From: Burkholderiaceae bacterium
GTDB taxonomy: Bacteria; Pseudomonadota; Gammaproteobacteria; Burkholderiales; Burkholderiaceae
Assembly: GCA_018261955.1 (NCBI GenBank)
Contig: JAGTRK010000002.1
Span: 186,001-250,000, forward strand
DNA: 64,000 bases
Reading direction: 5' to 3'
The notes below the pieces were generated by a model, which was not told the DNA's origin, did no database searches, and saw nothing but the letters and a program-made list of their open reading frames with translations. The position numbers and the translations under genes were made by a program. Below are positions 42,760 to 44,463 of the stretch, in pieces. Numbering within the stretch: position 1 is the stretch's first letter; each line of letters starts with the position of its first letter.

Positions 42760-43104
42760 ATGCCCCATTGCATCATAGAGCACACGCCCAATCTTCCGAT
42801 GGACACAGCACAATTGCTGCAAACCGCACATCAAGTGATGATCAATTCAGGACTGTTTGGCACAGCCGACATCAAAACCCGTGCATTCGTGGTGAATGAT
42901 TATGTGCTTGGCGCATCGTCTGTTGGCAAGGGTGAGTTTATTCACATCATCATTCGCCTGTTGGATGGACGAACGATGGAGCAGAAGCAAGCACTCACCT
43001 CAAACATGGCAAAAACTTTGCGCACACGCCTGCCAAATGTCCCGAGCATCACCGTGGACATCATCGACATGGTGCGTGAGAGTTATGCCAAGGATGTGGT
43101 TTAG
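42760..43104 (+). CDS. 5-carboxymethyl-2-hydroxymuconate isomerase-like tautomerase
   Basis: 114 residues. The protein begins MPHCIIEHTPNL, giving the N-terminal Pro after Met removal that serves as the general base in tautomerase-superfamily enzymes. The remainder, including VGKGEFIHIIIRLLDGRTMEQKQALTS, matches the CHMI/HpaF family. No other homoprotocatechuate pathway gene is nearby, so the physiological substrate is uncertain. It lies one base after the Nudix stop and probably shares its transcript. Confidence 0.8.
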   Translation: MPHCIIEHTPNLPMDTAQLLQTAHQVMINSGLFGTADIKTRAFVVNDYVLGASSVGKGEFIHIIIRLLDGRTMEQKQALTSNMAKTLRTRLPNVPSITVDIIDMVRESYAKDVV

Positions 43105-43157
43105 CCACACTGCGTGCTGGTGAGAGGGATTTAATCTGGACAATCCAATTCTTTTCC

Positions 43158-43186
43158 TTGCTTTTTTCAGCAAAAGGGTCTATAAA
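43158..43186 (+). promoter_or_regulatory. Promoter of the aroG leader
   Basis: TTGCTT (43158-43163) and TATAAA (43181-43186) are separated by 17 bases. The expected transcription start near 43193 is about 33 bases before the leader-peptide start codon. Confidence 0.6.
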
Positions 43187-43225
43187 TACGGGTATTGAAT
43201 TTTTGACGCTTTAGAGAGCACCCAC

Positions 43226-43291
43226 ATGCAACACGCACAATCTTTTTATTTCTGGCACTTTACACGAACTGGCGGTGGATCTGTTCGGTGA
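43226..43291 (+). CDS. aroG leader peptide rich in aromatic residues
   Basis: A 21-codon frame with a GAGAG-type ribosome-binding site starts at ATG 43226 and ends at TGA 43289-43291. Codons 7-12 encode Phe-Tyr-Phe-Trp-His-Phe in a row (43244-43261), which is typical of a leader peptide whose translation senses charged tRNA for aromatic amino acids. It lies between a promoter and a terminator directly ahead of DAHP synthase, so the arrangement fits transcription attenuation by aromatic amino acids. Confidence 0.75.
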   Translation: MQHAQSFYFWHFTRTGGGSVR

Positions 43292-43345
43292 GCCTTGTGC
43301 GACCCAAATACATAAAACCGCTAAACCTGTTTAGCGGTTTTTTTA
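43270..43345 (+). promoter_or_regulatory. Attenuator of aroG: terminator with possible antiterminator
   Basis: The terminator is AACCGCTAAA (43316-43325) paired with TTTAGCGGTT (43330-43339) around CCTG and followed by a T-run (to about 43344). The upstream segment TGGCGGT (43270-43276), inside the leader-peptide frame and after the aromatic codons, can pair over 7 bases (one of them G-T) with ACCGCTA (43317-43323). That pairing would prevent the terminator. A ribosome reaching the leader stop would cover 43270-43276 and favour termination. Confidence 0.7.
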
Positions 43346-43386
43346 TGCCATTTTTTAATTTTGATTATTTATTTTAAGGAAACACA

Positions 43387-44463
43387 ATGAATACAACCGA
43401 TGACGTTCGCATCAAGAAAATCGAAGAACTCGCACCGCCCATGCACATCATGCGCGAATTCCCACTGTCAGAAGCCGCCGCGCAAACCACCTTTGAAAGC
43501 CGCGAGGCCATTCATCGTGTGCTGCACGATGCCGATGACCGTTTGGTGGTGGTGATTGGCCCTTGCTCCATTCACGACACCCAAGCGGCGATTGAATACG
43601 CGCAACGCTTGATGGTCGAGCGTGAAAAATACAAAGACACCTTAGAAATCGTCATGCGCGTGTATTTTGAAAAACCGCGCACGACGGTTGGTTGGAAGGG
43701 CTTGATTAACGACCCTGATTTAAACAAAACCTTTGACATCAATAAAGGGCTACGCACCGCGCGTGAGCTGCTCCTGCACATCAACGAAATGGGTATGCCC
43801 GCTGCGGTCGAGTTCCTTGACGTGATTTCACCGCAGTACATCGCTGATTTGGTTAGCTGGGGCGCGATTGGCGCACGCACCACCGAGTCACAGGTGCATC
43901 GTGAATTGGCTTCGGGGCTGTCGTGTCCAGTCGGCTTTAAAAATGGTACAGACGGCAATGTGAAAATTGCGATTGATGCGACCCTCGCGGCGCGTCGCCC
44001 GCACCACTTTTTATCCGTGACCAAAGCAGGGCACTCGGCGATTGTCTCGACCAACGGCAATGCCGATTGTCATCTGATTTTGCGCGGTGGGAAAACGCCG
44101 AATTACGATGCAGCATCTGTGAATGCGGCGTGTGAGCAAATCGCTAAAGCAGGTTTGCCACAGCGCGTGATGGTCGATGCCTCGCATGCCAACTCTGAGA
44201 AAAATCCTGAGCGACAAGTGCCTGTGTGCGAAAACATCGCCGAGCAAATGGCGGCAGGGGATGAGCGGATTTTTGGCGTGATGATTGAAAGCCATTTGGT
44301 CGGCGGTCGTCAAGACTTGGTTGAAGGGCAAGCACTCACTTACGGTCAGAGCATCACCGATGGTTGTATCGATTGGGCGCAGTCGGAGTTGGTTTTGAGC
44401 GTGTTGTCCAAAGCGGTCAAAGCACGTCGCCAAGCCAAGTTGAACAACTACAGCGAGCAATAA
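43387..44463 (+). CDS. aroG: 3-deoxy-7-phosphoheptulonate (DAHP) synthase, class I
   Basis: 358 residues. The enzyme condenses phosphoenolpyruvate and erythrose 4-phosphate in the first step of aromatic amino acid synthesis. The family motifs are VVIGPCSIHD (metal-binding Cys), MRVYFEKPRTTVGWKG, GARTTESQVHRELASGLS and the C-terminal HANSEKNP and ESHLVGGRQ segments. Which aromatic amino acid inhibits it cannot be read with confidence. An AAGGAAACAC ribosome-binding site lies upstream. The 5' leader carries an attenuator that could respond to Phe, Tyr and Trp. Confidence 0.96.
   Translation: MNTTDDVRIKKIEELAPPMHIMREFPLSEAAAQTTFESREAIHRVLHDADDRLVVVIGPCSIHDTQAAIEYAQRLMVEREKYKDTLEIVMRVYFEKPRTTVGWKGLINDPDLNKTFDINKGLRTARELLLHINEMGMPAAVEFLDVISPQYIADLVSWGAIGARTTESQVHRELASGLSCPVGFKNGTDGNVKIAIDATLAARRPHHFLSVTKAGHSAIVSTNGNADCHLILRGGKTPNYDAASVNAACEQIAKAGLPQRVMVDASHANSEKNPERQVPVCENIAEQMAAGDERIFGVMIESHLVGGRQDLVEGQALTYGQSITDGCIDWAQSELVLSVLSKAVKARRQAKLNNYSEQ

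Follow-up and report, generated by a model that had tools for sequence, protein, structure and literature searches.

How is entry into aromatic amino acid synthesis controlled in a member of Burkholderiaceae whose aroG gene is preceded by a short open reading frame with six sensor-like codons in succession and by a hairpin? The locus lies in a 64,000-nucleotide stretch of contig JAGTRK010000002.1, the whole of which is referred to below as the window. As argued in the following, the element ahead of aroG is very probably a ribosome-mediated transcription attenuator of the trp type, pooling the charging states of the aromatic tRNAs.

Layout of the region upstream of aroG

Along the window the leader ORF is followed by the terminator and then by aroG, with the antiterminator and protector pairings among them (Table 1). 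The original prediction had placed the elements in this order ahead of a DAHP synthase gene, and both the sequence and the folds agree with it. The 21-codon leader with Phe-Tyr-Phe-Trp-His-Phe, which it had described, is present, the run occupying codons 7-12, and the identity of the downstream gene is secured by the score of its product against the NCBIfam AroG equivalog model. As in other attenuators of this class, the gene downstream of the leader serves the synthesis of the amino acids supposed to be sensed; codons for products of the pathway are clustered, a terminator lies between leader and gene, and an antiterminator competes with it in silico when the incomplete transcript is folded.

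Table 1. Predicted features of the aroG leader region (positions within the window)
Feature	Position	Strand	Basis
Promoter candidate: TTGCTT (43158-43163), 17-nt spacer, TATAAA (43181-43186)	43158-43186	+	sequence; predicted
Ribosome-binding site AGAGAG, weak, 7 nt 5' of the leader ATG	43213-43218	+	sequence; predicted
Leader ORF, 21 codons, product MQHAQSFYFWHFTRTGGGSVR, stop codon at 43291	43226-43291	+	sequence; coding test in relatives
Segment 1, CGCACAA, 5' arm of protector stem	43234-43240	+	fold of untranslated leader
Putative sensor codons Phe7 Tyr8 Phe9 Trp10 His11 Phe12	43244-43261	+	sequence; in-frame aromatic pN/pS 0.18
Segment 2, TGGCGGT, 5' arm of antiterminator, within the end of the leader ORF	43270-43276	+	fold, pairing
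TTGTGCG, 3' arm of protector stem	43295-43301	+	fold of untranslated leader
Intrinsic terminator: 12-bp stem with arms AAAACCGCTAAA (43314-43325) and TTTAGCGGTTTT (43330-43341), CCTG loop, T run to 43344	43314-43344	+	fold; -13.2 kcal/mol alone
Segment 3, ACCGCTA, 3' arm of antiterminator and part of terminator 5' arm	43317-43323	+	fold, pairing
aroG, DAHP synthase, regulated gene	43387-44463	+	NCBIfam AroG equivalog, 599.1 bits (cutoff 568)

As to transcription initiation, a candidate for the promoter proposed earlier does exist and would place the RNA start near 43193, but it scores only 8/12, and the promoter scan of the window region found nothing above threshold because this score lies beneath it. 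On the other side, a layout of this kind (TTG... and TA... hexamers separated by 16-18 nt, scoring at least 8/12) recurs in 80 of the 126 leaders whose upstream sequence is long enough, where shuffles would give 9.8; in 63 of these 80 the first hexamer starts with TTGC, and the commonest second hexamers are TATAAA (35) and TATAGT (22). Close conservation between the window and its sister species L002 starts near 43156. The ribosome-binding site of the original prediction can likewise be pointed to, though as a weak one.

The terminator, described earlier as a perfect 10-bp hairpin, is real, but its stem comprises 12 pairs in the fold rather than 10. A terminator scan lists it on the minus strand only, and we read the plus-strand miss as a consequence of the longer stem, which consumes part of the T run. 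In a consensus of 36 leaders, two-sided changes are seen in three of the nine pairs of the terminator stem. The predicted segment able to form an antiterminator was found as well, segments 2 and 3 being paired when the transcript is folded before its completion; its core is formed by GCGG with CCGC of the terminator 5' arm.

An alternative reading of such a 5' leader is translational control, exerted by an RNA-binding protein or a riboswitch. We find it scarcely plausible: the terminator ends 42 nt short of the aroG start, the aroG ribosome-binding site lies outside it, and the RNAalifold consensus of the 36 leaders consists of the terminator stem alone. A scan of the leader region against Rfam 15 gave no match at the gathering score, and the eleven matches obtained at E up to 5 were all below it (the best score, 21.3 of 39 bits, belonging to NsiR1).

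Occurrence and conservation in relatives

The question whether such leaders accompany aroG in relatives was addressed with 110 aroG loci, 30 of them from 100 genomes of the family of the window (92 of the 100 matched; the window is included) and 80 being the best of at least 594 in named genomes; some genomes are represented twice. The finder required an ORF with at least four Phe, Tyr or Trp codons among seven, followed by a terminator, this threshold having been chosen after the window had been viewed. Both features precede aroG in 99 of the 110 loci, the window among them, and these leaders make up 93 distinct units. The search for leader homologues upstream of aroG, which the original prediction had recommended, was thus successful. 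Nine of the 11 exceptions lack both features (L081, L089, L098, L099, L100 and L106-L109, with Rhodocyclales, Thauera and Sulfuritalea among them). In Candidatus Burkholderia humilis (L052) the reading frame downstream of the run is not the usual one and continues past the terminator, so this leader is perhaps a decayed copy, while L110 offers just 48 nt of upstream sequence.

The same finder detected nothing in the reverse complements of the 110 upstream regions (77 of which still contain a terminator) and nothing in 1362 random 380-nt windows taken off the leader from the loci of named relatives. These controls bear on another reading, in which the hairpin merely terminates the upstream gene and the ORF preceding it arose by chance. 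A terminator-like hairpin alone is indeed met in 47 of the 1362 control windows, but the combination of ORF and terminator, 99/110 against 0/1362, is far beyond chance and by itself argues against a chance ORF; moreover, some 210 nt separate the terminator from the end, at 43104, of the upstream gene, which is CHMI-like (Pfam PF02962). We regard the probability of this explanation as negligible.

Further leaders came from loci found with a covariance model (see below), the 93 units obtained by protein search alone (76 distinct peptides) plus 41 such leaders giving a set of 134. Since leaders found with the model favour resemblance to it, the main counts were repeated on the protein-found 93. 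Substitution rates were compared in pairs of equal-length leaders at least 65% identical. In the protein-found set (177 pairs, 87 distinct ORFs) the aromatic codons have pN/pS of 0.18 (pN 0.119, pS 0.672), against 0.78 and 1.82 in the other two frames, which serve as the control in place of a p-value, the pairs being non-independent; with the model-found leaders added (251 pairs, 127 ORFs) the values are 0.18 versus 0.91 and 1.90. Over all codons, in the latter set, the figures are 0.52 in frame and 0.91 and 1.04 in the other frames. Judging from these comparisons of sequences, selection in the aromatic run acts on codons rather than on bases. The original prediction would have suffered from a loss of the aromatic codons in relatives; they are kept in 99 of the 110 upstream regions and are under in-frame selection. 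Phenylalanine is encoded by TTT in 425 of 558 leader codons (0.76) versus 0.23 in aroG, and the share of TTT is higher in the leader than in aroG in 116 of 127 loci; this preference could reflect tuning of stalling or the keeping of the run unstructured.

Conservation of another kind is observed in the tail of the ORF. Of the 93 protein-found leaders, 92 carry the motif GCGG downstream of their last aromatic codon and ahead of the stop, where shuffles would give 30.2; with the model-found ones included, it is there in 129 of 134 (47.3 expected). It is read in frames 0, 1 and 2 in 63, 9 and 3 of the 76 distinct peptides, one lacking it; in the larger set of 114 peptides the respective numbers are 90, 13 and 6, with five lacking it. 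As the core is present in all three frames, the tail is conserved as RNA. This conservation is relevant to another possible mechanism, arrest by the nascent peptide, of which TnaC is an example: the stall would be caused by the peptide itself, a free amino acid perhaps acting as ligand. The peptide tails do resemble each other within clades (PLADREG, NPKAVE), but they differ between clades, the reading of GCGG in three frames speaks for RNA, and the aromatic residues vary in order and number among the leaders, all of which makes peptide arrest highly unlikely.

When the pairing energy between segment 2 and the 5' arm of the terminator was compared with 100 shuffles per leader, no more than five shuffles reached it in 73 of the 93 distinct leaders; the other 20 did not beat the shuffles at this level. 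The pair adjoining the core is a standard one in 126 of 130 leaders (G-C in 119, G-U in 5, A-U in 2), and the A-U form can be seen in two members of the clade of the window, L003 and L004. Other positions flanking the core pair in 81-89 of the 130 on one side and in 48, 40 and 8 on the other.

The breadth of the family was assessed with the covariance model, R1, built from 36 leaders. Near-identical rows and five minus-strand loci that could not be placed had been set aside to give 40 proposed rows; of these, L075, L091, L092 and L104 were omitted, and the start of L004 was shifted. The window leader scores 58.9 bits (E 2.1e-12), being itself one of the 36 rows. In a search of 300 genomes from the order, run under filters by which weak matches are lost, 135 genomes gave matches at E<=0.01; many of these matches cover the terminator alone, so our conclusions rest on full-length matches at E<=1e-5, found in 71 of the 300 genomes by our count of rows. 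Forty-nine of these 71 (including G190) were inspected, and 47, distributed over 14 family codes, are situated at a locus with aroG. Among 369 genomes of the class, seven match R1 at 1e-5: three belong to the order, the genome of the window being one of them, family f63 contributes three and f68 one, and aroG is present at all seven loci. The finder recognized the leader in five of them; in L145 (with a GTG start) and L148, as in L149, L155 and L164 elsewhere, it missed the leader, which was identified by eye. Weak R1 matches in G278 and G196 were discarded, their loci being without aroG. Dyella (L102), which we take to be gammaproteobacterial, is a named genome with an aromatic leader before aroG.

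Two of the inspected full-length matches, L158 (reverse strand) and L159, the R1 matches of G214 and G346, precede an unknown protein instead of aroG. Here an aromatic leader (..YFYWYRSS..) and a terminator stand before a protein of about 200 amino acids beginning with MNEVSDA, which had no Pfam match in the 180 residues scanned. Four genomes of this genus code match R1 with E of 1.3e-6 to 6e-5, two of them having been inspected.

As for other genes of the pathway, no aromatic ORF was seen by eye upstream of the second DAHP synthase of the window genome (49% identical), and the ORF listing of the pheA and pheS loci, checked by eye, contains no same-strand ORF with four aromatic codons of eight ahead of the gene. 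That the second DAHP synthase and pheA show nothing comparable is a point against the attenuator reading. Ahead of the second DAHP synthase in L112 (1898-1949, reverse strand) a hairpin CGCAACAT...ATGTTGCG followed by T's was noticed by eye; such a hairpin before the paralogue, with no aromatic ORF, is possibly another leader control.

Predicted switch and the amino acids it would sense

Sequence and comparison show the ORF, with its conservation at the level of codons, as well as the structures that compete and how they are spaced. We infer that the leader is transcribed and translated, that ribosomes stall on it, that the antiterminator is first to form and then holds, and that the system responds to tRNA charging. 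RNA polymerase would start near 43193 and a ribosome would translate the leader. Poor charging of Phe-, Tyr- or Trp-tRNA would stall it on codons 7-12, leaving segment 2 free to pair with segment 3 before the 3' arm of the terminator is made, and the antiterminator so formed would let transcription continue into aroG. With all three tRNAs charged, the ribosome would arrive at the stop codon and cover segment 2, and the terminator would form. It would also form when the leader is not translated, as the protector stem would then hide segment 2. Such a leader would act as an OR gate, collecting three tRNA signals at the entry to the pathway, any one of which should suffice.

To model this switch, we treated the RNA as hidden by the ribosome as far as 13 nt downstream of the first A-site nucleotide and folded the remainder as it is before the 3' arm of the terminator exists. 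With the ribosome on the first, middle or last aromatic codon, the antiterminator holds the terminator 5' arm (P>0.5) in 131, 134 and 133 of the 134 leaders, respectively; for a ribosome that has reached the stop codon the count is 6 of 134. When the edge was varied from 10 to 18 nt, the count for the middle codon stayed at 134/134, that for the last codon fell to as low as 107/134 (at 18 nt) and that for the stop ranged over 3-17 of 134. The outcome at the stop codon is largely set by the chosen edge. In L072 and L075 the ORF extends far beyond segment 2, and hence a ribosome at their stop codon would leave this segment uncovered. Without a ribosome, the leader being read from its ATG, the antiterminator is favoured in 92 of 134, and thus the protector stem of the window appears not to be general in relatives.

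In the window itself, the antiterminator amounts to -14.6 kcal/mol with the ribosome at Phe7 to His11 and is weaker, -12.2 kcal/mol, at Phe12; the state with the ribosome at the last aromatic codon is borderline (0.75). The model gives no antiterminator with the ribosome at the stop and the protector stem in the untranslated leader. At equilibrium, however, the complete terminator is favoured in 122 of 134 leaders despite a ribosome stalled on the middle aromatic codon, and in the window it belongs to the minimum-energy fold in all nine ribosome states tried. Control therefore requires that the antiterminator form first and persist.

Which amino acids are sensed is less uniform than the mechanism. 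Phenylalanine and tyrosine codons are near-universal in the eight-codon run, while tryptophan occurs in 33 of the 76 distinct protein-found peptides: 43 have Phe and Tyr only, 32 have all three and one has Phe and Trp. Among the 114 peptides that include the model-found ones, the corresponding numbers are 64, 47 and 2, and one more has Phe only. The claim that three aromatic amino acids are sensed in one leader thus suits the codons of the window and its clade, in which all seven leaders keep Trp, but describes a trait of lineages and not of the family as a whole.

We consider it quite likely that the organism of the window does sense tryptophan through this leader. On the other hand, sensing by this attenuator might be confined to Phe and Tyr, with the Trp and His codons having drifted inside the aromatic run. 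In agreement with this, Trp is missing from the run in 43 of 76 protein-found peptides and in 65 of 114 with the model-found ones; its presence requires at least 17 changes on a quick AroG tree (136 rows, 47 of the 133 inner branches open); and place 11 is His or Tyr in close relatives, for which reason His11 is probably no sensor. Candidate Trp-rich leaders before trpE, present in the genus of the window, in a sister genus and in a Burkholderia-like genome, also imply that tryptophan may be watched there. However, besides the seven leaders of the clade, most of the Burkholderia-type ones retain Trp, and its repeated appearance is not easily neutral, because passing from a Phe or Tyr codon to TGG takes two base changes. 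With the ribosome on the Trp codon the antiterminator is free in 63 of 63 leaders (60-63 with edges of 10 to 18 nt). Sensing of Phe and Tyr only is, in our opinion, possible but rather unlikely.

The candidate peptides before trpE, all noticed by eye, are GRWQVLHGRLGSWR in the genus of the window (L172) and VTRWQRLRWRLGSWR in a sister genus (L174, L175); in L173, RGAWPWRRWSR some distance 5' of trpE is a further candidate. Their Trp residues are spaced and do not form one block. The N-terminal domain of TrpE was not found in the assembly of the window genome (G000), which is 88.7% complete. We set aside tryptophan auxotrophy: since trpA is present, L172 of the same genus has a TrpE frame and the assembly is incomplete, a missing contig is likelier.

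Relation to known systems

TyrR and TrpR are described, in the available part of the source, as highly conserved in many groups of Gammaproteobacteria and absent in other classes (PMC5343134). A broader hypothesis, on which we are evenly divided, is that the aroG leader is an old, order-wide and hitherto undescribed OR gate for Phe-, Tyr- and often Trp-tRNA, by which much of Burkholderiales would mainly control chorismate entry at the transcriptional level, in place of TyrR and TrpR, sensing of Trp having been repeatedly gained and lost and TTT tuning the stalling. The attenuator offers a testable answer to the question of how the flux of aromatic synthesis is set outside the range of these regulators. 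Natural leaders with or without Trp and with varied codon order constitute a series for studying how several tRNA signals are weighed, and the leaders as a whole point to a family without a match in Rfam 15. They may also provide a handle for engineering of aromatic production in hosts such as Cupriavidus.

Among the papers listed for searches of the open full-text literature we found no description of an aromatic leader of aroG, and five peptide strings from such leaders did not occur in that literature; an earlier prediction in subscription papers is possible. The accessible portion of PMC2965389 contains no aro gene. We asked whether ncS35 of B. cenocepacia might be a terminated aroG leader, but discarded this idea, as its published description places it elsewhere (PMC5760752).

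The class of mechanism is known, and attenuation of DAHP synthase genes has been proposed in other organisms; the multi-aromatic sensor and its breadth appear undescribed in the literature searched. In the trpL and pheA leaders of enterobacteria, an ORF with regulatory codons precedes an antiterminator competing with a terminator, and the position of the ribosome decides between them. The aroG leader resembles them in its ORF, in the competition of the antiterminator with an intrinsic terminator and in the predicted switch by ribosome position; it differs in that they respond to one amino acid each, whereas it has two or three kinds of aromatic codons and targets DAHP synthase. To the pheA leader model of Rfam (Phe_leader, RF01859) it does not belong, scoring 17.4 bits against a gathering score of 55. 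Several amino acids of a branched pathway are pooled by the ilvGMEDA (Ile/Val/Leu) and thr (Thr/Ile) leaders. The aroG leader is multivalent like these, but it concerns the aromatic family and another gene, the sequences having been compared by the Rfam scan only.

As to DAHP synthase genes, attenuation was reportedly proposed at E. coli aroF by Camakaris in 1980, as cited in PMC8632094 and PMC2659441. For Shewanella, motifs at aroF and aroH are reported and the aroF attenuator is listed as sensing Tyr-tRNA (PMC2659441, in excerpt), and for the Vibrio gene pair aroF-type>tyrA attenuation or transcription termination was proposed (PMC1173090, likewise). These cases share with ours a proposed attenuation or termination at a DAHP synthase gene, but they belong to Gammaproteobacteria, and the portions of the sources available describe no multi-aromatic leader. 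A further parallel, compared by description only, is uORFC-13-1 before aroF of Acholeplasma, a candidate attenuator uORF beside a terminator, in which a U run encodes at least one Phe; in the accessible text it is known only from Acholeplasma and environmental sequences, with 24 representatives (PMC8632094). With the aroG leader it shares a Phe-coding uORF, a neighbouring terminator and a position ahead of DAHP synthase. Set beside all these systems, the attenuator of aroG is real and conserved, and it represents an ordinary mechanism in an unusual place and with an unusual, pooled input.
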